Part shown: positions 1-18,074 of the stretch, piece after piece
Numbering within the stretch: position 1 is the stretch's first letter
How the letters are laid out: each line of letters starts with the position of its first letter
Origin: a virus
Length of the DNA: 27,329 nt
IMG/VR virus record: IMGVR_UViG_3300022743_000015
Coordinates: 1 to 27,329 of that record
Reading direction: 5' to 3' (one strand)
Notes under the pieces: generated by a model
What the model saw: the letters and a program-made list of their open reading frames with translations, nothing else
Told to the model about the DNA's origin: nothing
The model's database searches: none
Translations under genes and position numbers: made by a program

Positions 1-121
1 AAGTTGCTGGTGCGATACGAGAAGCTCGAACGCAGCTTTGTTGCGCTCAACCACATCGCAGCCGCGATCATCGCGCTACGCAAGGTGCCGTTGAAGATCA
101 ACATAATTTACGGATAGATTC
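1..121 (+). mobile_element. IS5-family insertion sequence, 3' end (left copy)
   Basis: Bases 1-117 encode the last 38 residues of a transposase, ending in RKVPLKINIIYG and a TAG stop. The motif RYEKLERSFVALNHIAAAII is typical of the C-terminus of IS5-family DDE transposases. The element end is placed at base 121 because bases 1-121 are identical to the reverse complement of 27207-27327 and the two sequences diverge after that. The next bases are TAA here and TTA (read outward) at the other copy, which fits a TNA target duplication as used by the IS1031/IS427 groups. The rest of the element lies outside the window. The subgroup assignment is an inference. Confidence 0.85.
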
Positions 122-1754
122 TAAGCCCGTCCTTCTCGGCACTCGGCGGCTCGCCTTCCGGCGTCGCTGGGCGCTCCTCTCGGGGAGTCTGAACGAACGT
201 GTACGGTTCGAATCCACACCACCATCGCTCTTCGATTTGCTCGAGCTTCAGGAAGATGCCTTCCTGGAAGGGATAGCCGAGCTTTGGTACTACCCCTGTG
301 AGTGCACTGGCATAAGCCTGCTTGAGCCCGGCTAGGTCCTCAACACGCCTTTGGGTGTGCAGTTCGTCTTCACCCTCGCGAGGGGCTGTTACGACCAGGG
401 AATGGCCCGATGTGCGCAGCCTGGGGTTCAACGGACGGTGTCTGGACAGCGCCTGCACCAGCGCGTCGTAGAGCAGGCCCATAGCCCAACTGTTGCGCGC
501 CGCGTCGAGCTCGACAGTTCCTGCCAGCTTCGGACCCAGGGGAGTGAGCGCGGTGAGGATAGCATCGTCCCTGCCAAACACCGCAAGGTCCTTACCATTC
601 GCGGCCACCGCAGCGCGCACCTTTTTCTCCTTCAGCATCGACCGCACAACCGGTGAAGTCGCGGCCTGATTGAGCATTATCCGGCGGGCGAGCCGGGGCA
701 TAGACTCGATCAGCAAGGCCGAGTACCGCAGGACCGGAAATTGTCGAGCGTCACTTTGGGGCAACTGCACAGGCACCAGCCGCGGTTCTGCCCTTCCCTG
801 CTCAAGTTGGTCCATGAGGACCTTGGGGAGGTCAACATGCTTCAGCACGTCAGCGGCCAGCTCATCAAACGTCTTGCACTCCACGACGGCCACGTCGACG
901 CCAGCGAGCTGAGCGTTCGCCAGGAACTCCACCACGGCAGGAAGTAGCTTCGACGATGATTGAGTGACCCAGTACAGCCCGTTGGGGAACGGCGTGGTTT
1001 CCTTGAGGACAGCATTCAACGCCTCCATCACGGACGCATCACGGCCGCTGTAACCGACGAGCACCATGCCAAGTCGCTGGCTCACTTCGATCAGTACGTG
1101 CCGCATACGCTCGTCTTGCTTCTCGAGTTCCGAGCCGGTGTTCTTGATTTCAATGGATTGGTAGTCGCCGTGAAGCTTTGCCACCAGAGGCCAGTCGGCC
1201 TCGGTCAGGCACCGCTTGGCCCGTGCTGCTGAATCTAGGCCTGCGACTGTCGTACGGCGCTGGTCAGTAACCGGAAGCAACGTATTGGCTGCGACAGCAG
1301 CATCCTCTACCAAGGGGTCGAAGTTCGTGGTGAAGACGCAATCGACCTTGCCGCCAGCCATCATGCTTGCCAGGACCTTGTGTCCGTAGCATGGCGTGCC
1401 CTTCTTTATCGCGTCGTCGATGTACTGACGCCGCAACCGGGGGTGCGGGTACACCGCCTCGAACGCCTGGGCATATTCGGTGGGGTCACCATCGGGCGGC
1501 AACAGGGAGGACCCGCGAAAGAAGGCGTCGATTCGTTCGATCCACACCGGGTCGCCGGTGTCAATTTCGCGTTTGGAGAGGTTGTTCTCGCGGCAGTAGA
1601 TTTGGGCCTTGAAGTCCCGGATCATCATGTAGCCAGTCGGGATGCCAGACGCCGCCGAGGCACCTGCACCGAGAAACCATGCAACCAAGTTCGGCCGGAG
1701 CGCGATCGCTGTAGCGAATTCCCTCGCCGAAATCGTCGGAACTGAATCTGTCAA
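108..1754 (-). CDS. SIR2-like domain defence-type protein, C-terminus altered by IS
   Basis: The N-terminal ~290 residues form a SIR2-like (Rossmann, NAD-binding) domain: GAGAS at about residue 29, TTNFD at about 142, KLHGDY with the candidate catalytic His at about 195, and GYSGRD further on. Proteins of this class usually hydrolyse NAD in phage defence rather than deacylating proteins. The C-terminal ~250 residues are not clearly recognised. The stretch near the end with LKLEQIEERWWCGFEPYTF, and the total size, recall SIR2-APAZ partners of short Argonautes, but this is a guess. The last residues, LRIYP plus the stop, come from the flanking IS, so the native tail is lost or changed. A TTG start at 1754 is chosen because GGAGG lies 7 nt upstream; an ATG at 1817 (or TTG at 1820) would give about 570 aa without a visible ribosome site. 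No Argonaute or other partner is in the window. Confidence 0.8.
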   Translation of the reverse strand: MTDSVPTISAREFATAIALRPNLVAWFLGAGASAASGIPTGYMMIRDFKAQIYCRENNLSKREIDTGDPVWIERIDAFFRGSSLLPPDGDPTEYAQAFEAVYPHPRLRRQYIDDAIKKGTPCYGHKVLASMMAGGKVDCVFTTNFDPLVEDAAVAANTLLPVTDQRRTTVAGLDSAARAKRCLTEADWPLVAKLHGDYQSIEIKNTGSELEKQDERMRHVLIEVSQRLGMVLVGYSGRDASVMEALNAVLKETTPFPNGLYWVTQSSSKLLPAVVEFLANAQLAGVDVAVVECKTFDELAADVLKHVDLPKVLMDQLEQGRAEPRLVPVQLPQSDARQFPVLRYSALLIESMPRLARRIMLNQAATSPVVRSMLKEKKVRAAVAANGKDLAVFGRDDAILTALTPLGPKLAGTVELDAARNSWAMGLLYDALVQALSRHRPLNPRLRTSGHSLVVTAPREGEDELHTQRRVEDLAGLKQAYASALTGVVPKLGYPFQEGIFLKLEQIEERWWCGFEPYTFVQTPREERPATPEGEPPSAEKDGLRIYP

Positions 1755-2175
1755 GCCTATACCTCCGCTACGAGTGCCGCCCGCATCTGCGCCAAGCTTG
1801 TGCACTTTTGTAACCATCAATATAACGTGAACCCGTAGGCAAATTCATTTAAAACGTCAAGATCCCGATCCCTCAAGCGGATGACCGACGTTTTGTGAAG
1901 CCGGTCAGCGCACGCTGCCAGCTTACTTCGCGTAGGCTTCGGCGCCCGATCTTCAGCTCGCGGAAGTCTCACCCCAGGTCTCCATACATGACCTTGCCAG
2001 TCACCCCAATTACGTCAGCTGCCTCGCCTAAACCGGCCGTAGATGCCGCCATCGAGATCACGCGGCAATGACCGTAAAGTGCCCGACACCGTGAGCTTGG
2101 CTGTGGGAACTGACAGACGGCTTCCGCAGCCTTGGAGTCAGTCGCCATCACTATCCTTTTACAGTTTCCGCCTCA
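1755..2175. other. intergenic region between the sir2-like gene and the recombinase cassette
   Basis: About 420 bases without a convincing gene. A 60-codon open frame on the minus strand (2151-1969) has no clear ribosome site or recognisable family and is not called. A TTGACG on the minus strand near 1860-1855 could be a -35 box for the sir2-like gene, but no good -10 follows at standard spacing. Because large serine recombinases often lie next to their attachment site, this gap is a plausible place for one attachment half-site. No repeat pair in the window confirms it. Confidence 0.35.
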
Positions 2176-3980: not shown

Positions 3981-4489
3981 TTGGAGCCGCCTTTCTTGGC
4001 TGAAGATTTGGCTGCGTCGTCCTTGAGCCCAAAAAAGACGGGACCTGACCAGCGGCTGCTGGTGATCTCTCGCGCAATCATCGAGAGGCTGCGGTAGGGG
4101 CGACCTTCAAACTCGTACTGGCCGTCGGCCGTGGCGATCACCTGGTGCACCTTGCCGTGGTACTCGCGGGTGAACAGTGTGCCGGGCGTTGGGTGGAAAT
4201 CTCGGTCTCGCTTTCTGAGCTTGCCGGTGGCAATCAGCGAGGCAATCTTTTTGTTATTGCGCTCCAGCAGCCCCGGGTCGACCTTGCGGAACTCGACCTC
4301 CTGCAGTTTGTAGGCAATGCGGCGCTCCAGAAATTGCCGGTTGTGGGTGGGTGTTTCACCGCCGAACAGCTTTCGCCACAGGGCTTTGATTTCTGCAAAC
4401 GGCAGGCTGGGCAGTTCATGCACCTGGGCCACTGCGGTCCGGTGAAGGGTTGGTGGAGTTTTGCTTGGTTTCATTTGAACCTCGTTCAT
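3977..4489 (-). CDS. DUF2924 family protein
   Basis: A 170-aa basic protein of the DUF2924 family, recognised by the order ...LPFAEIKALWRKLFGGETPTHNRQFLERRIAYKLQE..., then RDFHPTPGTLFTREYHGKVHQVIATADGQYEFEGRPYRSLSMIAREIT...SRWSGPVFFGL (quoted only in part). The family is almost always found directly upstream of this kind of serine recombinase; its biochemical role is not established to my knowledge. An ATG at 4489 overlaps the upstream gene by ATGA. An ATG at 4474 is the better start by ribosome site (GAGG 6 nt upstream), and it lies 44 nt from the CAGAGCG core of the control element at 4505-4537, a spacing matched at the two other copies. The C-terminal KSSAKKGGSK is a basic tail. Confidence 0.88.
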   Translation of the reverse strand: MNEVQMKPSKTPPTLHRTAVAQVHELPSLPFAEIKALWRKLFGGETPTHNRQFLERRIAYKLQEVEFRKVDPGLLERNNKKIASLIATGKLRKRDRDFHPTPGTLFTREYHGKVHQVIATADGQYEFEGRPYRSLSMIAREITSSRWSGPVFFGLKDDAAKSSAKKGGSK

Positions 4490-4695
4490 TTGTTGATGAG
4501 GTCTGTATGAACGCTCTGGTCACCAGAGAAGCCAAGTAAAACTTTTCGCTCAGTGGCAGGTATCTGACGTTTGGCCGGGCTTGACTGACGCAGCCTGACC
4601 AGGCCCTTTGCGAGGATGGAGGCGATCTCCAGCCGACGCTGATCAGGGGTCATGCGCTCAGGCGGGAGGTGGTTAATGCTGTTTTTTAGGCTCAT
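4486..4695 (-). CDS. small protein at the head of the recombinase cassette
   Basis: A 69-aa protein with MTPDQRRLEIASILAKGLVRLR in the centre, a helical segment common to short proteins encoded ahead of DUF2924 in recombinase cassettes. It ends with LGFSGDQSVHTDLINK. The DNA of this tail is the control element described separately, so its coding role and its regulatory role overlap. It overlaps DUF2924 by ATGA. No strong ribosome site precedes the ATG at 4695. The function is unknown. Confidence 0.6.
   Translation of the reverse strand: MSLKNSINHLPPERMTPDQRRLEIASILAKGLVRLRQSSPAKRQIPATERKVLLGFSGDQSVHTDLINK
4505..4537 (-). promoter_or_regulatory. shared control element, copy 1 (ahead of DUF2924/recombinase)
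   Basis: On the minus strand it reads ACTTGGCTT, 10 variable bases, CAGAGCGTTCATAC. The same arrangement with identical spacing occurs at 19544-19512 (minus) and, with a diverged 3' end, at 18095-18127 (plus). A 15-bp imperfect-centre palindrome, CTCTGGT-G-ACCAGAG, overlaps it (4514-4528). It lies about 30 nt ahead of the ATG at 4474. It may be a promoter or operator, or an mRNA leader element. Confidence 0.65.
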
Positions 4696-4770
4696 TGGGT
4701 AGCGTTCCGTGTTGACAAACTTGTGTAGCCAAAATTGTCTTTAAGGGTTGCCTCCAAGGCCAGCAGGGAG

Positions 4771-4810
4771 TTGCGGGTGGTTGTGGGTTGGTGCGGGTTC
4801 CTGCGGGTTA
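4771..4810 (+). repeat. four tandem 10-bp repeats (TGCGGGTTnn)
   Basis: Four copies of TGCGGGT, one with a single change (TGTGGGT), begin at 4772, 4782, 4792 and 4802, exactly one helical turn apart. They lie about 55 bp upstream of the -35 box of the repressor gene and about 75 bp upstream of the recombinase cassette start, so they could bind a regulator cooperatively on one face of the DNA. Confidence 0.7.
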
Positions 4811-4862
4811 ACGCCTGAAATCATCGTAAAAAATGTTTTTTGCAATTGAAGACACAAGATCA

Positions 4863-4897
4863 TTGCAAAGTGAACGATCGTTCTCTACAATGATTCC
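4863..4897 (+). promoter_or_regulatory. repressor promoter with palindromic operator; probably leaderless
   Basis: TTGCAA (4863-4868) and TACAAT (4886-4891) are separated by 17 bp, a good sigma70-type promoter. The spacer carries the perfect palindrome GAACGATCGTTC (4872-4883), which resembles the GAAC-N4-GTTC boxes of some LexA proteins and is well placed for self-repression. The predicted transcription start, about 7 nt after the -10, falls at the GTG start codon (4898), and no ribosome site precedes it. The mRNA is therefore probably leaderless, as for lambda cI from PRM. Promoter and operator are seen in the sequence; function is inferred. Confidence 0.75.
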
Positions 4898-5485
4898 GTG
4901 AAGAAAACAATCAACGATCTCGAACACCTGGCCACCCTGCAGGACTATTACGCCCAGCACCGGGTGTTGCCCTCGTACACCCGGCTGATGTCGCTGTTGG
5001 GGTTCGCCTCCAAGTCCGGTATCAAAAAGGTGCTGGAGCGGCTGGAGGTTGCGGGCATGCTGGAGCGCACCTCGGATGGCGACTGGTCTCCGACCGATCG
5101 CTTCTTTGACCGCTCCATTGCAAATCTGCCAGTTGCCGCTGGCATGCCCTTGCCAACTGTAGACGAGGGTGGCGAGCAGATGACGCTGGACCGCTTTTTG
5201 ATCGCCCGGCCCGCCAACACGGTGCTGGTGCGGGTCAAAGGCGACTCAATGATCAACGCCGGTATCCACAGCGGGGATCTGGCTGTCGTCGAGCGACGCA
5301 GTCAGGCCAACCCCGGTGAAGTGGTGGTTGCGATCGTTGATGATGAATTCACACTGAAAACACTCGGACGAGACAAAGACGGATATCACCTGCTTCCCGC
5401 CAACCCGGATTTCCCCACCATCCGGCCCAACGGCAAACTTGAGATTTTTGGGGTTTTGGTTGGCCTTGTGCGCAAATACTCATGA
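4898..5485 (+). CDS. LexA/CI-like S24 self-cleaving repressor
   Basis: A 195-aa protein with LexA architecture: an N-terminal winged HTH (about 1-65, with FASKSGIKKVLERLEVAGML) and a C-terminal S24 peptidase domain. The likely cleavage bond is Ala81-Gly82 in VAAGMP, with catalytic Ser117 in KGDSM and Lys154 in FTLKTL. The Ser-Lys distance of 37 residues equals that of E. coli LexA. RecA-stimulated self-cleavage and SOS-linked derepression are therefore expected. It starts at GTG 4898, directly at the predicted transcription start. It could be the prophage repressor, or a dedicated regulator of the two genes that follow 12 bp downstream. Its size fits LexA (about 200 aa) more closely than a long CI. 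Confidence 0.9.
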   Translation: MKKTINDLEHLATLQDYYAQHRVLPSYTRLMSLLGFASKSGIKKVLERLEVAGMLERTSDGDWSPTDRFFDRSIANLPVAAGMPLPTVDEGGEQMTLDRFLIARPANTVLVRVKGDSMINAGIHSGDLAVVERRSQANPGEVVVAIVDDEFTLKTLGRDKDGYHLLPANPDFPTIRPNGKLEIFGVLVGLVRKYS

Positions 5486-5497
5486 GGCAAACTAACA

Positions 5498-6739
5498 ATG
5501 AAAATATTCAACCCTGCACATTTCCTGCGTCACATTTCGATGCCAACCCTGCGCGAATTTACCGACGCGCATCCCCTGGGCCAAAGCCTGGTCATTGACT
5601 GGAGCCTGGCGCAGGAACTGCTGCCCGCCGTGGTCAATGATGCGGTCGCGTTGCTTGACGCTTCCATGCAGGGTGCCGAGATGACGCACGCCGAGCGCGA
5701 GTCGGTTGAATACAACCTGCATCTCTGGCATGACGACCTGCGCCGCGCTCACCTGATGTCCAACGATCTCTCCATCCAAGAGTTTCAGACCTCATGCGCT
5801 GGTGATCGCGAGGTGCAGGAAGCATTTGCCAGCCGCGATGCCCGCGAGCAGTCGCTGTGGATGCTGACCTTTCGGGACACCGCCTTTCGCAACGCTGAAA
5901 TGCACATTGCCTTTCAGGCCAAGTCCAATGGCAAGTACTGGAAAAAACACCGCATCCAGCCTGGGCTTGACCCGATGCAAGACCGCAGCAAACTCGATGC
6001 CTTTTGCCACGAGGTGGCCAAACTCTACAAAAGCGTGGGCGGTGGCGACGGCACCCACATTGAGGTCAGCAAACGGGCCGCCGACGGCAGCGTGCAACTG
6101 ACCATCTACATCGAAGGCCCCGTCACGGCGATTGCACATTTTTCGGAAAGCAGTTTCAAACGCATCAACACCCGCATCGCGCTGGAGACTGCGCTGGTGT
6201 ACCAGCCCTCGACCGGTTTCATTGAAACCGTCGTTAAGGGTGGTGCCAAGAATCATGGCGCGGTGCTTGAACTCTTTGGCAAGCATGTGGTCGAGGCAGC
6301 CATCAAGCCTGAAGAAATAGAGAAGACCCGCTACAAACTCAATGCCTTGCGCGACGGCATGATGGAGCCGTTTGAGGACTGGTCAGCCTATGGCGTCGAG
6401 AAGGTTCGTCTGCGCCGGGCACGCTTCACGCCCATGGGACGCACCGGCATTTCGTTTCAGGTGGAAGCACCATCGGCCAAAGACCAGGACGATGCGATCC
6501 GACTGGCGCTGACAGGGCTCAAGGTGCATCACTCTTTCGAGTCGGAATACAACATGAGCAGTGCCTCGGTCATCGTCTACACACTGCCAACTGAAAGCCG
6601 CAAGGCCGGACATTTCAGCTTTGATATTTCTGCCACAGGCTCTTCGACCATCAAAAACCTGGCTGACAAGAATCAGCCAACGGCACTGGCTGTTCTGCAT
6701 TCGCTGAACGTGATCGAAGCAGAAGAGGTTGCGGCGTGA
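5498..6739 (+). CDS. unrecognised 413-aa protein of the repressor cassette
   Basis: I do not recognise the family. It is soluble in character, with no membrane segment or signal peptide. The N-terminal third is largely helical (WSLAQELLPAVVNDAVALLDASMQ). A middle part alternates beta-like stretches (HIEVSKRAADGSVQLTIYIEG) with the charged segment EEIEKTRYKLNALRDGMMEPFEDWSAYGVEKVRLRRARF (quoted in parts). The C-terminal part is again beta-rich. It follows the LexA-like gene by 12 bp and overlaps the next gene by GTGA, so all three are probably one transcript. A GAGG lies 10-13 nt before the ATG. Its position between repressor and terminator suggests a phage accessory or immunity cassette, but no function can be assigned. 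Confidence 0.85.
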   Translation: MKIFNPAHFLRHISMPTLREFTDAHPLGQSLVIDWSLAQELLPAVVNDAVALLDASMQGAEMTHAERESVEYNLHLWHDDLRRAHLMSNDLSIQEFQTSCAGDREVQEAFASRDAREQSLWMLTFRDTAFRNAEMHIAFQAKSNGKYWKKHRIQPGLDPMQDRSKLDAFCHEVAKLYKSVGGGDGTHIEVSKRAADGSVQLTIYIEGPVTAIAHFSESSFKRINTRIALETALVYQPSTGFIETVVKGGAKNHGAVLELFGKHVVEAAIKPEEIEKTRYKLNALRDGMMEPFEDWSAYGVEKVRLRRARFTPMGRTGISFQVEAPSAKDQDDAIRLALTGLKVHHSFESEYNMSSASVIVYTLPTESRKAGHFSFDISATGSSTIKNLADKNQPTALAVLHSLNVIEAEEVAA

Positions 6740-7701
6740 GTCTTGCGCAAATCAGTGCCACCAGTGTGTTATGCCAACTCCTTGAGCGTGAAAAACCCGA
6801 GGTCAACGGCATGACTCTGTTGGGTGGTGAATATGGGGACGCCGGACGTGATTTGTTGCGTGAACGACTGCTTGTCGTTGGCGCGTCACTCTCGCACGTG
6901 ACGTGCCCTGAGTGTGGTGTGGAACTGGCGCGCGTCGTTCGTGATCTCGCCCATGAAAACATCCTGCTCTACTGCGATGAATGCGGCGAAGTCACCGGCT
7001 CAAGGTCCTTGCAAGAAACCTACAAAGTGAGCCTGCCCAAGTTCATTGACCGCCTGATGCTTGGGCTTGGAACGCCGACCAGCGCCAAGAAAGAAGTCGC
7101 CACCGAGGTGGCCTGGCGCATCGGGGTCACGGAGCCTGCGCGTGGCAAACCGCTCACCTGGTACTTCGCACGCCACTTGCATGACCACAAGACGGCGCAG
7201 CGGCTGGTGGAAACCATCTGGCAGGACCAGGCGCACAAGTCGGCGAAGGTGCTCACCAGCAGCGCGTTACCACTGCCCGAGGGCTCGCCCCTGAGTGACT
7301 TTGATGTGGTCCATCTCAGTGATGTCGCCCGCATCTCGCAAAGCAAATTTGTGTTCTTCAATGACCGCATGAGCGTGCCCGTTTCAGCGCCGGTTGAAGA
7401 CACCCTGTTTCAAACCACGCTGCGCCTGGTACGCACGGAGGGCAAGGCGCGTGTGGATGGCATTGACTATCCGCTGGAGCCACGGCAGAAGGATTTGTTG
7501 TTGGCGCTGATGGACGACTTTGATCGTGAGATGGACCGTGATGCATTGCGTACAGCATGTCGATCACAAGCCGATCCGTTTTCACCAATCAAAGTATTCG
7601 ATCGAAATAAGGTGGTCTACAAACAGTTCATCAAATACCAGTCTGGTGACGGCGTTTACGCCTTGCAAATACCCGCGGAAGACCGTGACTGGCTGACCTG
7701 A
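6736..7701 (+). CDS. unrecognised 321-aa zinc-ribbon protein of the repressor cassette
   Basis: A protein with a four-Cys zinc ribbon near the N-terminus, CPEC at 57-60 and CDEC at 80-83 (19 residues apart). The middle section is charged and contains WYFARHLHDHKTAQRLVETIWQ. The last ~75 residues (from PLEPRQKDLLLALMDDF to GVYALQI) resemble a winged-helix DNA-binding domain of the OmpR type. It starts at GTG 6736, overlapping the upstream stop (GTGA), with AGAGG about 8 nt before. The layout suggests a DNA- or RNA-binding partner of the 413-aa protein. The zinc ribbon is seen directly; the winged helix is an inference from pattern. Confidence 0.85.
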   Translation: MSLAQISATSVLCQLLEREKPEVNGMTLLGGEYGDAGRDLLRERLLVVGASLSHVTCPECGVELARVVRDLAHENILLYCDECGEVTGSRSLQETYKVSLPKFIDRLMLGLGTPTSAKKEVATEVAWRIGVTEPARGKPLTWYFARHLHDHKTAQRLVETIWQDQAHKSAKVLTSSALPLPEGSPLSDFDVVHLSDVARISQSKFVFFNDRMSVPVSAPVEDTLFQTTLRLVRTEGKARVDGIDYPLEPRQKDLLLALMDDFDREMDRDALRTACRSQADPFSPIKVFDRNKVVYKQFIKYQSGDGVYALQIPAEDRDWLT

Positions 7702-7731
7702 GTCACTGCAACCCTCTTAGACCTAAGCTTT

Positions 7732-7795
7732 AACCTGCACCAGCCCGCAGGTTCATCTCAAACCCGGCGCTCGCCAGTACGAGCCCGGGTTTTTT
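7732..7795 (+). terminator. hairpin plus rho-independent terminator after the repressor cassette
   Basis: A first hairpin pairs AACCTGC (7732-7738) with GCAGGTT (7747-7753). A second, stronger one pairs AACCCGG (7761-7767) with CCGGGTT (7785-7791), with an inner CTCG/CGAG stem, and runs directly into six T. This should end the transcript of the repressor-413-321 cassette and insulate it from the replication operon. Confidence 0.85.
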
Positions 7796-7820
7796 GCATT
7801 TTGTCCGCACGAATCGCATT

Positions 7821-7862
7821 TGAGGAATGCCGCTGAGGAGTCTGAGGAATGGCTTGAGGAAT
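7821..7862 (+). repeat. four direct repeats of TGAGGAAT
   Basis: TGAGGAAT at 7821, 7843 and 7855 and TGAGGAGT at 7834, in the gap before the replication operon. The copies lie 13, 9 and 12 bp apart. They could be regulator sites for the early operon promoter; no clear -35/-10 pair is visible nearby. Confidence 0.6.
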
Positions 7863-7910
7863 CCCGATTGTTGAAATTCATCTCACTGGTTAGCGAGGCA
7901 AACGAGCTTC

Positions 7911-7928
7911 AAAAAACCGGGGTTTTTT
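7911..7928. promoter_or_regulatory. A/T-flanked palindrome before the replication operon (possible attenuator)
   Basis: AAAAAACC and GGTTTTTT are separated by two G, ending 8 nt before the AAGGAG ribosome site of the first operon gene. It could act as a weak terminator or attenuator in either direction, or as a protein-binding palindrome. Confidence 0.45.
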
Positions 7929-7947
7929 CAACACCAAGGAGATTCAA

Positions 7948-8166
7948 TTGCAATCAGCAGAAAAGGTCAAGCACCTCAACCAAACCCAGTTAGCAGAGCG
8001 CTGGGACGTCGCTGAAGCGACGTTAAAAAGATGGCGCAGTGACGGCATCGGTCCGGTCTTCATGAAGATCCAGGGCCGCGTGCTGTACCGCGTCGAAGAC
8101 ATCGAAGCTTTCGAGTCCGACAGCTTGCGTCAGAGCACTTCCAGTGCAGTGGGAGGTGCAGCATGA
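7948..8166 (+). CDS. small HTH (MerR/excisionase-like) DNA-binding protein
   Basis: A 72-aa protein with the helix-turn-helix of the HTH_17 type (QTQLAERWDVAEATLKRWR, residues ~12-30), followed by GPVFMKIQGRVLYRVEDIEAFE, the wing and helix typical of excisionases and short phage regulators. The TTG start is supported by AAGGAG 6 nt upstream. It is the first gene of the replication operon and overlaps the next by ATGA. It could act as excisionase or as an early regulator. Its distance from the recombinase, and its position heading the early operon, favour a regulator. Confidence 0.85.
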   Translation: MQSAEKVKHLNQTQLAERWDVAEATLKRWRSDGIGPVFMKIQGRVLYRVEDIEAFESDSLRQSTSSAVGGAA

Positions 8167-8648
8167 GCACGCTACCGCTTGATCATCCCGATCAAATTTT
8201 GTCCATCTCTGTGGGCGCATTGGCTGAGCAGTCCGGCGAGTCGCTGTTTCAGCTCAAAAACAACGCGGCAGATTTTTTGGTGATGGCCAAGACCATCGTC
8301 GAGCACATCGACCGGGCGCTGGATTTGAAGTACGCAGCGCAGGCCCACCAACTGCGACTGGCCGCAGGCAAAGACACCGGCGTTGTTCATTTCGACGACG
8401 GCCGCGTGCACATCACCGCCGACCTGCCCAAAAAGATCGAGTGGGACCAAGCCCGCCTCGCTGACATCACACAGCGCATTGCCGCCAACGGCGACAACCC
8501 GGCCGAGTACGTCGAGATCAGCTACCGCGTCTCGGAAACCAAGTTCAACGCGTGGCCCGAATCGCTTAAGAGCTCGTTCTCTGCGGCCCGCACCCTCAAA
8601 ACCGGCAAGCCGGGCTTTCGTCTCGCACTTCAAGGAGAAAACAAATGA
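8163..8648 (+). CDS. conserved-looking phage protein of unknown function (161 aa)
   Basis: I do not recognise a named domain. The first half is helical (ESLFQLKNNAADFLVMAKTIVEHIDRAL). The second half contains GVVHFDDGRVHITADLPKKI and SYRVSETKFNAWPESLKSSF. GGGAGG lies about 6 nt before the ATG, and both ends overlap neighbours by ATGA, so expression is tied to the Sak4-like ATPase downstream. A role in replication or recombination is inferred from context only. Confidence 0.8.
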   Translation: MSTLPLDHPDQILSISVGALAEQSGESLFQLKNNAADFLVMAKTIVEHIDRALDLKYAAQAHQLRLAAGKDTGVVHFDDGRVHITADLPKKIEWDQARLADITQRIAANGDNPAEYVEISYRVSETKFNAWPESLKSSFSAARTLKTGKPGFRLALQGENK

Positions 8649-9589
8649 GCCTTCCCATCATCACCGCTGACCAGCGGTTGGCCGAACGTCGTGGCGTCAA
8701 AGGCGTGCTCGTCGGCAAAAGCGGCATTGGCAAAACCTCTCAGTTGTGGACCCTCAAACCCAGCGCCACTTTGTTCTTTGACCTGGAAGCTGGCGACCTC
8801 GCAGTAGAAGGCTGGGCCGGTGACACGGTGCGCCCACGCACCTGGCAGGAGTGCCGTGACTTTGCCGTCTTCATTGGCGGCCCCAACCCCGCGCTGCGTG
8901 ATGAGCAGCCCTACAGCCAGGCCCACTTTGATGCGGTGTGCCAGCGCTTTGGCCAGTCCTCGTCTATGGACAAGTACGACACCGTGTTCGTGGACTCGAT
9001 CACGGTGGCCGGTCGTCTGTGCCTGCAGTGGTGCAAAGGTCAGCCCCAGGCGTTTTCAGAAAAAACCGGCAAGCCCGACAGCCGGGGTGCTTACGGTTTG
9101 ATGGGCCAGGAAATGATCGGCTGGCTCACGCACTTGCAGCACACCCGGCGCAAGAACGTGTGGTTCGTCGGCATCTTGAACGAAGCGCTGGACGACTTCA
9201 ATCGCCGCGTTTTTTCTCTGCAGGTTGATGGCTCCAAAACCGGACTGGAGTTGCCCGGCATCGTCGATGAGGTGGTCACGCTGACCGAACTCAAAAGTGA
9301 TGACGGCACGAGCTACCGCGCCTTTGTCTGCCACACGCTCAACAACTGGGGCTATCCGGCCAAAGACCGTTCGGGTCGCCTTGACGCCATTGAGGAGCCC
9401 AACCTGGGCCGCCTCATGGAAAAGATTGCTGGCCCGGCCAAACCCGCACCAGAACGACTCGACTTTGCGCGGCCCGCCACCAGCGTTGCGCCTTTGCCAA
9501 AAGCCAGCACCTCAAGTGAAGACACCACTGAGGGCAACACAGACACCAGCTTCGACCCCACTTCCTTCAACCCCACTCAGGAGTCCTGA
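8645..9589 (+). CDS. Sak4-like RecA-fold ATPase (phage recombination)
   Basis: A 314-aa AAA_24-type P-loop protein with Walker A GKSGIGKT at 24-31, Walker B YDTVFVDSI at ~111-119, and a RecA-like core to ~250. The C-terminus is an extended Ser/Thr/Pro-rich tail. Phage proteins of this type (Sak4 group) help single-strand annealing or strand exchange and work with an SSB-like partner, which is exactly the next gene (2 bp gap). It overlaps the upstream gene by ATGA. The core shows no disruption. Assignment to Sak4 rather than another AAA_24 branch is by pattern and context. Confidence 0.85.
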   Translation: MSLPIITADQRLAERRGVKGVLVGKSGIGKTSQLWTLKPSATLFFDLEAGDLAVEGWAGDTVRPRTWQECRDFAVFIGGPNPALRDEQPYSQAHFDAVCQRFGQSSSMDKYDTVFVDSITVAGRLCLQWCKGQPQAFSEKTGKPDSRGAYGLMGQEMIGWLTHLQHTRRKNVWFVGILNEALDDFNRRVFSLQVDGSKTGLELPGIVDEVVTLTELKSDDGTSYRAFVCHTLNNWGYPAKDRSGRLDAIEEPNLGRLMEKIAGPAKPAPERLDFARPATSVAPLPKASTSSEDTTEGNTDTSFDPTSFNPTQES

Positions 9590-9591
9590 AC

Positions 9592-10206
9592 ATGACTTAC
9601 TTCGATTTCAATTCCGCGTCCGAGCAAACCTCTTTTGACCTGATCCCCAAAGGCACGCTGGTGCGGGTGCGCATGACCATCAAACCAGGCGGCTTTGATG
9701 ACGCCTCGCAAGGCTGGACCGGTGGTTATGCCACTCGCAGTGTCAGCACCGGCTCGGTGTACCTGAACTGCGAATTCGTGGTGACCGATGGTGAGTTTGC
9801 ACGCCGCAAGATGTGGTCACTCATTGGTTTGCACAGTCCCAAGGGACCTGAGTGGGCCAACATGGGCCGCACCATGGTGAAGGCCATCCTGAACTCGGCA
9901 CGCAACGTCCAGCCGGGTGACAACAGCCAGGCCGCCCAGAACGCCCGGCGTATCAGCGGCTTTGCGGATCTGGATGGCATTGAGTTCCTGGGCAAGGTGG
10001 ACTGGGACAAAGACCAGAACGGCCAGGACAAGGCGGTCATCAAGGCGGCAGTGACGCCGGACCACAAGGACTACGCCGCTGCCATGGGTGCACCGCGAAC
10101 AGCAACGCCAGCTACTGCATCTGCCGGTGTTGCGCCCGCAGCCAATGCCTATGCCCAAGCCACAGGTCGTGCGCCGGTTCCCGGTCGTCCGAGCTGGGCG
10201 CAGTAA
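9592..10206 (+). CDS. SSB-like single-stranded DNA-binding protein of the Sak4 module
   Basis: A 204-aa protein. The N-terminal ~145 residues are beta-rich (GTLVRVRMTIKPGGF..., SVYLNCEFVVTDGEFARRKMWSLIGL..., GIEFLGKVDWDKDQNGQDKAVIKAAVTP) as in OB-fold-like phage proteins that accompany Sak4-type ATPases. An Ala/Pro/Thr-rich linker then leads to a short conserved-looking tip, GRAPVPGRPSWAQ, comparable to the protein-interaction tip of SSBs. AGGAG lies about 9 nt before the ATG. Single-strand DNA binding is inferred from fold pattern and neighbours. Confidence 0.75.
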   Translation: MTYFDFNSASEQTSFDLIPKGTLVRVRMTIKPGGFDDASQGWTGGYATRSVSTGSVYLNCEFVVTDGEFARRKMWSLIGLHSPKGPEWANMGRTMVKAILNSARNVQPGDNSQAAQNARRISGFADLDGIEFLGKVDWDKDQNGQDKAVIKAAVTPDHKDYAAAMGAPRTATPATASAGVAPAANAYAQATGRAPVPGRPSWAQ

Positions 10207-10221
10207 GCGGGGATCACAGCC

Positions 10222-11934
10222 ATGATGCTTCGACCCCGCCAATCCCTGCTGGTCCAACGTACCCTGGACGCGCTCGCTCTGCATGGCAACACGCTGGCTG
10301 TCGCGCCCACCGGGTCTGGCAAGACCATCATGTTGTCGGCGGTGGTCGGCAAGATGTTGTCTGAGCCGGATGCCAAGGCCTGTGTGCTGGCGCACCGCAC
10401 CGAACTGACCGGTCAGAACCGGGCCAAGTTTTCCCGCGTCAATCCGGGCTTGAGCACCTCAGTGTTTGATGCCCAAGAAAAGTCCTGGGCGGGTGACGCC
10501 ACCTTTGCGATGGTGCAAACCCTCTCGCGGCCCATGAACCTTGCGCAGATGCCCACGCTTGATGTGCTGGTCATCGATGAGGCGCACCACGCGTCCTCAC
10601 CCAGCTACCGGGTAGTCATCGACCAGGTCTTGGCCAAGAATCCCAAGGCTGCAATCTGCGGGCTGACCGCCACGCCCAACCGGGGTGACGGCAAAGGCCT
10701 GCGCGAGGTGTTCTCCAACGTGGCCGACCAGATCAGTCTGGGCGAGATGATCGCCAGCGGCCATTTGGTGTCGCCCCGTACTTTCGTGATTGATGTCGGC
10801 GCGCAGGAAGCATTGCAAAACGTGCGCCGCACAGCGATCGACTTCGACATGGAGCAGGTGGCCACGATTCTCAACAAATCGTTGATCACTAACGCCGTGA
10901 TTGGGCACTGGAAACAAAAAGCGGCTGACCGCAAGACCATCGTTTTTTGTTCCACCGTGGCCCATGCGAAAAATGTCTGCGAGGCGTTTGTGGCTGCCGG
11001 TGTGCCGTCCGTGCTGATCCATGGCGAACTGTCGCCGGTTGAACGCCAAACAAGGCTGCAAGCATTTGAGACCGGCAGCGCCCAAGTGGTGGTCAATGTG
11101 GCGGTGCTCACCGAGGGCTACGACTACACACCCACGGCGTGTGTGGTGTTGCTGCGCCCGAGTTCCTACAAGTCCACCTTCATTCAAATGGTTGGGCGTG
11201 GTTTGCGCACGGTGGACCCGCAGGAGTTTCCGGGCGTCATCAAGTCCGATTGCGTGGTGCTGGATTTCGGCACCGCCAGTCTGATGCACGGAGCGCTGGA
11301 GCAAGAGGTCAACCTCGATGGCCATGCGCATGAGGGTGAAGCACCCACGAAAGAGTGCCCGGAGTGCGAGGCCACAGTGCCGCTGTCTTGCATGGAGTGC
11401 CCGCTCTGCGGCCATGTCTGGGAGCGCCAGCCAGAGGACACCGGCGCACTGTCGGATTTCATCATGAGTGAAATCGACTTGCTCAAGCGCTCGAATTTCC
11501 GGTGGTGCGATCTTTTTGGTTGTGACGACGCCTTGATGGCCACGGGCTTTACCGCATGGGGTGGCGTGTTTTTCCTGAACGGCAGCTGGCATGCCATCGG
11601 TGGTGCCAAGTCGCTGCGTCCCACCTTGCTGGCAGTGGGCGAGCGCACTGTTTGCATGGCGCGTGCTGATGACTGGCTGAACGACCACGAGTCGGCCGAC
11701 TCGGCGCACAAGACCAGGCGCTGGCTCAACGAGCCGCCCACGGTCAAGCAACTGGTCTACCTGCCAGAGGCGATGCGGACCGATTTCGGCATGACCCGCT
11801 ACCAGGCCTCCGCTTTGTTGTCGTTTCAGTTCAACCGCAAAGAGATTCAGCGCCTGGTCACTGCTGCCAATGACGCGCATCACAGAAGCGCCACCAGCCA
11901 CAGCAGCCACGCCCATGTTTTGGAGGCGGCTTGA
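10222..11934 (+). CDS. superfamily II DEAD/DEAH-box helicase
   Basis: A 570-aa helicase with Walker A APTGSGKT at 28-35, IDEAHH at 118-123, GLTATPNRGDG (motif III region), and the helicase C-terminal domain with TEGYD and QMVGRGLRT (motif VI). From about residue 379 there is a zinc-ribbon-like segment, CPEC...CMECPLCGHVW, then a C-terminal part of ~160 aa. This composition matches phage replication/recombination helicases encoded next to Sak4-like ATPases. It unwinds or remodels DNA using ATP, with loading on forks or recombination intermediates inferred. GGGGAT precedes the ATG. Confidence 0.92.
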   Translation: MMLRPRQSLLVQRTLDALALHGNTLAVAPTGSGKTIMLSAVVGKMLSEPDAKACVLAHRTELTGQNRAKFSRVNPGLSTSVFDAQEKSWAGDATFAMVQTLSRPMNLAQMPTLDVLVIDEAHHASSPSYRVVIDQVLAKNPKAAICGLTATPNRGDGKGLREVFSNVADQISLGEMIASGHLVSPRTFVIDVGAQEALQNVRRTAIDFDMEQVATILNKSLITNAVIGHWKQKAADRKTIVFCSTVAHAKNVCEAFVAAGVPSVLIHGELSPVERQTRLQAFETGSAQVVVNVAVLTEGYDYTPTACVVLLRPSSYKSTFIQMVGRGLRTVDPQEFPGVIKSDCVVLDFGTASLMHGALEQEVNLDGHAHEGEAPTKECPECEATVPLSCMECPLCGHVWERQPEDTGALSDFIMSEIDLLKRSNFRWCDLFGCDDALMATGFTAWGGVFFLNGSWHAIGGAKSLRPTLLAVGERTVCMARADDWLNDHESADSAHKTRRWLNEPPTVKQLVYLPEAMRTDFGMTRYQASALLSFQFNRKEIQRLVTAANDAHHRSATSHSSHAHVLEAA

Positions 11935-16802: not shown

Positions 16803-18074
16803 ATGAAGCCCACCATCAAAATCCAATACCGGCCGATTGAGTCCCTGATCCCTTACGCCCGAAATGCCAAGCTGCACTCGGACGCCCATGTGGCACAGAT
16901 CGCGGCCAGCATCACCGAGTTTGGCTGGGGTGCACCGATCCTGGTGGACGGACAAAACAACGTCATCGCCGGTCACGGTCGACTGCTGGCAGCCCGAAAA
17001 CTCGGCATGCCTGAAGTGCCCGTCGTGGCCATGGAACATCTGACTGAGATTCAGCGCAAGGCACTGATCCTGGCCGACAACAAGATCGGCGAGAACGCGT
17101 CCTGGGATGACGATCTGCTGGGTCTGGAACTGGCTGAGCTGCAGGAAGCTGGCTTTGATCTGGGCCTCACCGGCTTTACCGCCGAAGAGTGGGACAAGCT
17201 TATTGCGGGCGACCCCAGCAACGATGGCCTGACAGACGAAGACCAGGCACCCGAGGTGGCCGAGACAGCCGTCTCCCAAACCGGCGACATCTGGGTCCTT
17301 GGCGAGCACAAGCTGTTGTGTGGCGACGCCACCAAGGTAGAAGATTACAAGGCGCTGCTGGGCGACGAACTGGTGGACATGACCGCCACCGATCCGCCCT
17401 ACAACGTCAACTACGCCAACACGGCCAAGGACAAGATGCGCGGCAAGGACCGTCCCATTCTGAACGACAACATGGGCGCGGACTTTGGAGCGTTCTTGCA
17501 GTCGGCATGCCAGAACATCCTGGACGTCACCAAGGGTGCGGTCTATATCGCCATGAGTTCATCCGAACTCGATACCTTGCAGGCAGCGTTTCGCGCCGCA
17601 GGGGGCAAGTGGTCCACCTTCATCATCTGGGCCAAGAACACCTTCACCATGGGTCGCGCTGATTACCAGCGCCAGTACGAGCCGATTCTCTACGGTTGGA
17701 AAGACGGTGCTCAGCACTACTGGTGCGGTGCACGCGACCAGGGAGATGTGTGGCACATCAAGAAGCCGCACAAGAACGATTTGCATCCGACCATGAAGCC
17801 GGTGGAGTTGATGGAGCGCGCGGTGCGCAACAGCAGCAAAACAAGGGACATCGTGCTGGATCCGTTCGGCGGCTCTGGCACCACCCTGATCGCCTGCGAA
17901 AAGTCGGGTCGTCGTGCCCGGCTCATTGAGCTCGATCCCAAGTACGTGGACGTAATCGTCAAACGCTGGCAGGACTTCAGTGGCAAGCAAGCGGTGCGTC
18001 AGGCTGACCAATTGAAGTTTGACGACATTAGCCCGGCACTATCCGCGATTCAAGTGGCTGAAACGCCACTGTGA
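16803..18074 (+). CDS. ParB-domain DNA methyltransferase (N6-adenine/N4-cytosine, beta class)
   Basis: A 423-aa fusion. Residues ~1-110 are a ParB/sulfiredoxin-like domain (IQYRPIESLIPYARNAKLHSDAHVAQIAASI..., ending GHGRLLAARKLG). Residues ~170-410 are a DNA methyltransferase with the catalytic TDPPYN motif at ~196 before the AdoMet-binding DPFGGSGTT at ~352, the order of the beta class. It probably modifies phage DNA against restriction or affects gene control. The target sequence cannot be read from the protein. It starts 15 bp after a terminator and has no strong ribosome site (GAAGCA only), so it is probably transcribed from a promoter in the preceding gap or by read-through. Confidence 0.92.
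   Translation: MKPTIKIQYRPIESLIPYARNAKLHSDAHVAQIAASITEFGWGAPILVDGQNNVIAGHGRLLAARKLGMPEVPVVAMEHLTEIQRKALILADNKIGENASWDDDLLGLELAELQEAGFDLGLTGFTAEEWDKLIAGDPSNDGLTDEDQAPEVAETAVSQTGDIWVLGEHKLLCGDATKVEDYKALLGDELVDMTATDPPYNVNYANTAKDKMRGKDRPILNDNMGADFGAFLQSACQNILDVTKGAVYIAMSSSELDTLQAAFRAAGGKWSTFIIWAKNTFTMGRADYQRQYEPILYGWKDGAQHYWCGARDQGDVWHIKKPHKNDLHPTMKPVELMERAVRNSSKTRDIVLDPFGGSGTTLIACEKSGRRARLIELDPKYVDVIVKRWQDFSGKQAVRQADQLKFDDISPALSAIQVAETPL

Follow-up and report, generated by a model that had tools for sequence, protein, structure and literature searches.

In the SXT/R391 elements the S24 LexA-like repressor SetR is made from a leaderless mRNA, and DNA damage frees a two-subunit activator that switches on the genes of the element (PMC4542580). 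RexA, encoded behind the repressor gene in lambda cI-rexA-rexB, shares one fold with RdgC, Iml3 and Chl4 (PMC11077077). Here we analyse a three-gene cassette, encoding an S24 repressor and two proteins of 413 and 321 residues (P413 and P321), in the IMG/VR virus record IMGVR_UViG_3300022743_000015, whose 27,329 bases (positions 1–27,329) are called the window below. We consider a DNA-damage-triggered prophage induction switch to be the best explanation of this cassette, and a reasonably probable one.

SetR–SetCD has the closest known logic to this cassette, but the proteins and the layout differ: SetR has four operators and setCD lies on the divergent PL transcript, whereas here there is one operator, and the repressor and the candidate activator share one operon. 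P413 and P321 have no Pfam FlhC/FlhD match, and those models are reported to be unsuitable for SetC/SetD-type proteins. The likeness to lambda cI-rexA-rexB consists of a repressor gene in first place, a leaderless-type promoter with an operator and, at fold level only, a second gene whose product has a predicted RdgC/RexA-type fold. The differences from lambda are the single operator, the co-orientation of the operon with the replication genes, a predicted DNA-binding protein (P321) instead of the membrane protein RexB, and the absence of RexA sequence similarity.

An operon headed by a LexA-like repressor

The cassette comprises the following features.

4863–4891, plus strand: operon promoter TTGCAA-N17-TACAAT, sigma70-like, with a layout conserved in relatives
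4872–4883, unstranded: predicted S24 operator GAACGATCGTTC, a palindrome in the promoter spacer and the only GAACN4GTTC in the window
4898–5485, plus strand: S24, 195 aa, LexA-like self-cleaving repressor by sequence, GTG start at 4898
5498–6739, plus strand: P413, 413 aa, helical N-terminal part and RdgC/CENP-N/L-like domains (predicted)
6736–7701, plus strand: P321, 321 aa, zinc ribbon and OmpR-type winged helix (predicted), translationally coupled to P413
about 7763–7795, plus strand: intrinsic terminator closing the operon, hairpin and T run

S24, P413 and P321 make up a single operon: it has one promoter of leaderless type, the operator lies in the promoter spacer, and the terminator is conserved. 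An earlier note on this DNA had described three packed genes (a 12-bp gap between S24 and P413, and a GTGA overlap of P413 and P321 at 6736–6739), one promoter with a spacer palindrome, and a terminator, all of which are present as claimed. The promoter is the only sigma70-like site within 4400–8200, and transcription would start near the GTG at 4898, as in leaderless mRNAs. The hairpin and T run 3' of P321 recur in nearly all relatives, which were taken from IMG/VR and from a genome set with one member per species; they amount to about 90 loci, nearly all in betaproteobacterial prophages according to the genome record titles, with one metagenome bin labelled Alphaproteobacteria.

LexA, CI and SetR-type proteins self-cleave on RecA filaments. 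S24 matches Pfam Peptidase_S24 (E 5e-27), its N-terminal LexA-like winged helix gives a match just under the Pfam cut-off, and its score against the LexA equivalog TIGR00498 is 98.4 bits, below the curated cut-off of 110.95. The Ala-Gly cleavage site (residues 81–82), Ser117 and Lys154 are intact in all 39 aligned S24 sequences, and by analogy S24 is expected to undergo RecA-stimulated self-cleavage.

A lone operator site is not beyond chance, as 44 of 100 shuffles of the window yield at least one GAACN4GTTC; its significance comes from the conserved position among relatives. The operator (GAACGNNCGTTC) lies 26–44 bp 5' of S24 in 47 of the 58 S24-bearing loci (overlapping fetches counted once), and all exact matches in 668 kb sit before S24, with about 0.6 expected. 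The palindrome is constant among loci and its central bases vary. It occurs once per element, solely at the S24–P413–P321 promoter, and a search for a second, lambda-type S24 site gave one-mismatch matches only. This lone operator, in the promoter of the S24 gene itself, makes S24 most plausibly an autoregulator with P413–P321 as its main output; repression of the replication operon by S24 as well is not supported, no operator being found there. The proposal of the earlier note, that the cassette would regulate itself and be released by damage, is well supported by the intact cleavage and catalytic residues and by the single, apparently autoregulatory operator per element.

P321 and a repeat array before the replication operon

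Downstream of the terminator, three further features precede or begin the replication operon; the two domains of P321 are listed with them.

6904–6984, plus strand: P321 zinc ribbon, C57-x2-C60-x19-C80-x2-C83
7408–7692, plus strand: P321 winged helix (predicted), residues 225–319, of which 250, 265 and 289 vary with the repeat array
7821–7862, plus strand: four-copy direct repeat TGAGGAAT / TGAGGAGT / TGAGGAAT / TGAGGAAT, with starts at 7821, 7834, 7843 and 7855; candidate P321 site
7885–7920, plus strand: two-part inverted repeat or hairpin between the array and the helix-turn-helix (HTH) gene
7948–8166, plus strand: HTH72, a 72-aa protein with Pfam HTH_17, first gene of the replication operon

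The AlphaFold2 (AF2) model of P321 (predicted local distance difference test, pLDDT, 86) is that of a soluble protein and not of a membrane protein such as RexB. The four cysteines of the zinc ribbon are invariant in 30 of 30 sequences, with weak, sub-threshold matches only in Pfam. For the winged helix, the top structural matches are nearly all of the OmpR/PhoB type (Z 6–7.5, root-mean-square deviation about 3); the Pfam Trans_reg_C match is sub-threshold and there is no receiver domain. The middle part is alpha/beta and, on slight testing, has no assigned fold. No PADLOC model, BstA included, matched P321 at E up to 1.

The array lies between the terminator and the HTH gene, just beyond the bounds of the earlier note (4863–7795), where it was overlooked. 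Its unit is TGNNGAAY-like and its spacing is 13-9-12; the copies in the window agree with one another at 31 of 32 positions, compared with 24–25 in shuffles. This spacing is kept in about 60 loci, mostly 126–128 bp before the HTH gene, and each element has a single array in the loci scanned; a simple search for a three-repeat pattern found nothing. The array was not found in L085, L100, L101, L103 and L107, in which the replication operon is also undetected. Its variable bases are largely common to the copies within one genome and different between lineages.

We compared every column of six proteins from 35 representatives with the variable dinucleotide of the array by mutual information. The two highest columns are R250 and D289 of P321, with E265 in third and D267 in fifth place, and all four belong to the winged helix; HTH72 has lower mutual information and is not favoured as the reader of the array. 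In a tree-aware analysis of co-change over 974 columns, D289 ranks first for array positions 4–5 (p 4e-5) and R250 first for position 3 (p 3e-4). Arrays of type AG pair with Arg250 of P321, types CA and CC with Met250 and Gly/Ser289, mostly together with Arg265, and types TGT and CGT with Gln289. GGG-type arrays occur in two lineages far apart on the tree, both of which have Lys290 and a 3-residue insertion in P321. This co-variation argues well, though not conclusively, for P321 as the reader of the array.

The inverted repeat at 7885–7920, a hairpin named by hand, has a covariation of 0.226 in 16 relatives compared with 0.149 in shuffles (0 of 500), with 13 cells changed on both sides. RNAalifold predicted no structure downstream of the array, and no Rfam match was found; the repeat could form a hairpin in an RNA leader or work as a DNA element. 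After HTH72, the replication operon encodes a 161-aa protein, a Sak4-like protein (phrog_124), a 204-aa protein in the position of a single-stranded DNA-binding protein, a helicase and a primase-like protein (AAA_25/Toprim), and no sigma70-like promoter is recognisable before it. The cassette had been called distinct from this operon. It forms a transcription unit of its own, yet the P413–P321 pair travels with the replication operon in most relatives, and the likely P321 site is the control region of that operon.

P413 has a predicted RdgC-type fold

Neither protein had been placed in a known family, and this still holds: P321 has sub-threshold matches only, and the only family of P413 is phrog_37634, which it matches over its full length (E 4e-43) and which has no assigned function. 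Pfam, NCBIfam and PADLOC (the last up to E 1) gave no match for P413, tblastn searches of isolated phages and plasmids with P413 and P321 gave no match, and a sequence search of the PDB with alignments of both proteins gave nothing useful.

The AF2 model of P413 (pLDDT 82; predicted template modelling score, pTM, 0.67) supports an RdgC-type DNA-binding fold, CENP-N/L-like, as in lambda RexA. The best Foldseek match is E. coli RdgC 2owl (E 6e-4), followed by CENP-N, and the 13 best VIA matches are all CENP-N, CENP-L or RdgC (Z 6.9–8.4). The Z values are 7.1 for RdgC and 7–8 for CENP-N/L, where Z under 8 can be coincidental; the assignment is persuasive because the top matches all come from one superfamily. 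The likeness lies in the predicted fold of residues about 75–410, whereas P413 differs in having an extra helical N-terminal part and no profile-profile signal to RdgC (PF04381), which neither Pfam nor hhalign matched. RexA is absent from the structural matches listed, and hhalign of P413 with RexA gives a probability of 0.1, a method by which RexA and RdgC, known structural relatives, also fail to find each other. Against viral structures, Foldseek gave one uncharacterised protein (E 2e-4) and otherwise weak matches. A separate true RdgC is present in 10 of the 12 host genomes tested.

Gene order in relatives

P413 and P321 behave as a fixed unit, lying side by side in all relatives that are not fragments. 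Among the 76 loci whose upstream sequence is long enough, S24 lies directly 5' of P413 in 55 and is replaced or lacking in the others, so that the three-gene synteny anticipated earlier holds for the pair but is not obligatory for S24 (no S24 immediately 5' in 21 of 76). In the typical arrangement c145, a serine recombinase and DUF2924 lie on one strand, followed by S24–P413–P321 and then by HTH72, the 161-aa protein, Sak4, the 204-aa protein and further replication genes. The S24 slot of L090 holds an XRE-type repressor with Peptidase_M78 (ImmA/IrrE type, tested with Pfam), with look-alikes in L015, L017 and L091; elsewhere it holds UmuC (L094), an Abi_2 gene (L031) or other genes, or is empty. 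The M78-type and UmuC modules are other damage-linked modules and support reading the cassette as a switch.

An operator shared with host repair genes

Several loci without S24 keep the operator: AGAACGAWCGTTCT is found 5' of P413 in L086, L087 and L107. In L086 and L087, which have no adjacent S24, the promoter immediately 5' of P413 contains AGAACGAACGTTCT, and the two Chitinibacter loci L107 and L108 have AGAACGATCGTTCT before a P413 that is only 35% identical. In the Chitinibacter genome the exact operator has three matches, namely the two prophage P413 promoters and one umuDC operon. In one Gallionella and one Nitrosomonadales genome it occurs, in each, before the prophage P413, at a chromosomal S24-umuD operon with a 56–57% identical S24, and at one further site without assignment. 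Since the operator is shared with host umuDC and repair genes, prophages lacking S24 are probably under the control of the host S24.

Across 31 Chitinibacter-family genomes there are 65 operator sites, compared with 12 for a reversed control, and in an order-level sample the operator occurs in only 9 of 60 genomes. The loci inspected from these two group searches include umuDC, S24, SRAP-like, uvrD and recG promoters. Genes adjoining the operator in L196, L198, L199, L204 and L206 resemble, by eye, SRAP, YcaQ-type and FAN1-type repair genes; those of L199 and L206 had no NCBIfam match.

Four of the five host genomes tested have no LexA above the curated cut-off, and the proteins that come closest to LexA in them are S24 relatives. 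A small tree places the host S24 proteins in a single clade (support 0.89) flanked by two phage clades, a position that would fit exchange either way. Control of umuDC by S24-family repressors that are not canonical LexA is known from non-canonical LexA and UmuDAb, and a phage origin has been proposed for the non-canonical LexA proteins of Bacteroidetes (PMC8565304). The difference here is that the same operator and a 51–57% identical repressor occur in prophages and in betaproteobacterial hosts.

Proposed mechanism and alternative explanations

In the mechanism we propose, S24 bound to the single operator within its own promoter would keep the operon low. Upon DNA damage, activated RecA would cause S24 to cleave itself at Ala-Gly, and P413 and P321, whose operon and coupling are observed, would then be made together and rise. 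P321 would use its OmpR-type winged helix to bind the four repeats that precede the replication operon, as the co-variation suggests, and would activate that operon. P413 most likely serves as the DNA-binding partner of P321 or modulates RecA and recombination while the prophage is induced, this being the weakest step. In prophages without S24, the host S24 would take control. P321 is read as an activator because a damage-raised repressor of the replication operon would block induction, and because that operon is preceded by no recognisable sigma70-like promoter. Immunity, anti-host action and induction control had all been entertained in the earlier note. Induction control fits best, given the single operator common to host repair genes, the zinc ribbon and winged helix of P321, and an array that tracks residues 250 and 289; immunity or exclusion, suggested indirectly by a P413 with a predicted RdgC/RexA-type fold behind a repressor, is less probable.

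The resemblance to lambda raises the alternative of a Rex-like exclusion operon, in which P413 would be a RexA-like DNA-binding sensor made in the lysogen, with P321 as its partner, that blocks other phages or biases the choice between lysis and lysogeny. The order repressor–P413–partner, the leaderless-type promoter and a P413 whose best structural matches, RdgC and CENP-N/L, have the fold of RexA (PMC11077077) are all in keeping with it, and a RexAB defence system has been demonstrated in a P. putida prophage (PMC12894663). We nevertheless regard it as unlikely, as P413 has no sequence similarity to RexA (a test that RexA and RdgC also fail with each other), RexA is not among the listed structural matches, a zinc-ribbon winged-helix protein is unlike the membrane protein RexB, and such cargo is usually variable, whereas P413 and P321 stay together in all non-fragmentary relatives. 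A replication-initiation module, with P321 as an iteron-binding initiator, the array as the origin, P413 loading or protecting DNA and S24 timing replication to damage, would account for the winged helix of P321 and for what lies just 5' of the replication genes, namely repeats resembling iterons and a conserved inverted repeat. It is quite unlikely in view of the 13-9-12 spacing, irregular for plasmid or phage iterons, the near-fixed distance from the array to the first gene of the operon (126–128 bp in most), which is like that of a promoter element, and the helicase and primase-like protein encoded downstream. The lineage-specific array also recalls BstA, whose cognate short DNA element has direct repeats and is variant-specific (PMC8585504), and P413–P321 could by this analogy inhibit the replication of other phages while the array protects its own prophage. 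This is highly improbable: neither protein matches BstA or any other PADLOC model, the BstA element lies inside the bstA locus while the array lies in the control region of the replication operon, and the predicted expression is SOS-induced rather than constitutive.

Several observations weigh against the induction switch. The tree-aware p-values are borderline after correction for 974 columns, for some labels fast-evolving columns of Sak4 or g161 outrank those of P321, and the array and the C-terminus of P321 are 120 bp apart, so that shared recombination could inflate their association. The fold match of P413 is moderate (pTM 0.67, Z 7–8), and sequence cannot separate an activator from a repressor or a replication initiator. 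L085, L101 and L107 keep the cassette without the array or the replication operon, a finding that does not suit a pure activator, unless these loci are remnants. Finally, a divergent S24 subclade (46–49% identical; L027, L100, L101, L105 and L110) has other promoter palindromes, an operator switch within the family.

We judge the cassette to be neither ordinary cargo nor wholly new in kind, but probably a lysis switch under SOS control that combines two uncharacterised families, a co-varying array and a host-shared repressor–operator pair. Tentatively, we extend this to a lysis switch wired into the host repair regulon. A non-canonical LexA and its operator would be common to the phage and to hosts without canonical LexA, some prophages would have lost their repressor and listen to that of the host, and the output would be a two-protein activator, made up of a DNA clamp of RdgC/CENP-N fold and a winged-helix protein that reads the four-repeat array and co-evolves with its specificity.

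Atypical loci and neighbouring genes

In L085 (5929–9470), subtilase (Peptidase_S8) and AAA ATPase genes directly follow P321, in the usual place of the replication module. Chromosomal-looking genes, not phage genes, follow the cassette in L100, L101 and L106; S24, P413, P321 and the recombinase are all intact in L101, and P413 is truncated in L106. A self-mobile mini-element was considered for these three loci and rejected, because L101 and L106 differ in where they end on the right; these loci look like remnants. L107 and L108 are two copies of a 4.84-kb block (6255–11094), from c145 to the P321 stop codon, in one Chitinibacter contig; the copies are 99% identical, about 52 kb apart, and have unrelated flanks.

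Elsewhere in the window, portal and major capsid genes lie in the right-hand part. At the left contig end, adjoining the serine recombinase, positions 108–1820 (minus strand) encode a SIR2-domain protein matching the PADLOC Argonaute-associated SIR2 models (E 5e-195), a defence gene carried as prophage cargo. A DNA methylase (N6_N4_Mtase) with a weak ParB_N domain is encoded at 16803–18071 (plus strand), in the early region.

Significance

The analysis gives a likely function and testable binding sites to two families so far without function, which are core genes of this prophage group, a group found mainly in freshwater betaproteobacteria and unmatched among the isolated phages searched. The array, with its lineage-specific bases, is a ready-made series for protein–DNA specificity. 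The natural pairs of phage and host repressors with a common operator make the proposed exchange between cellular SOS regulators and phage repressors directly testable.

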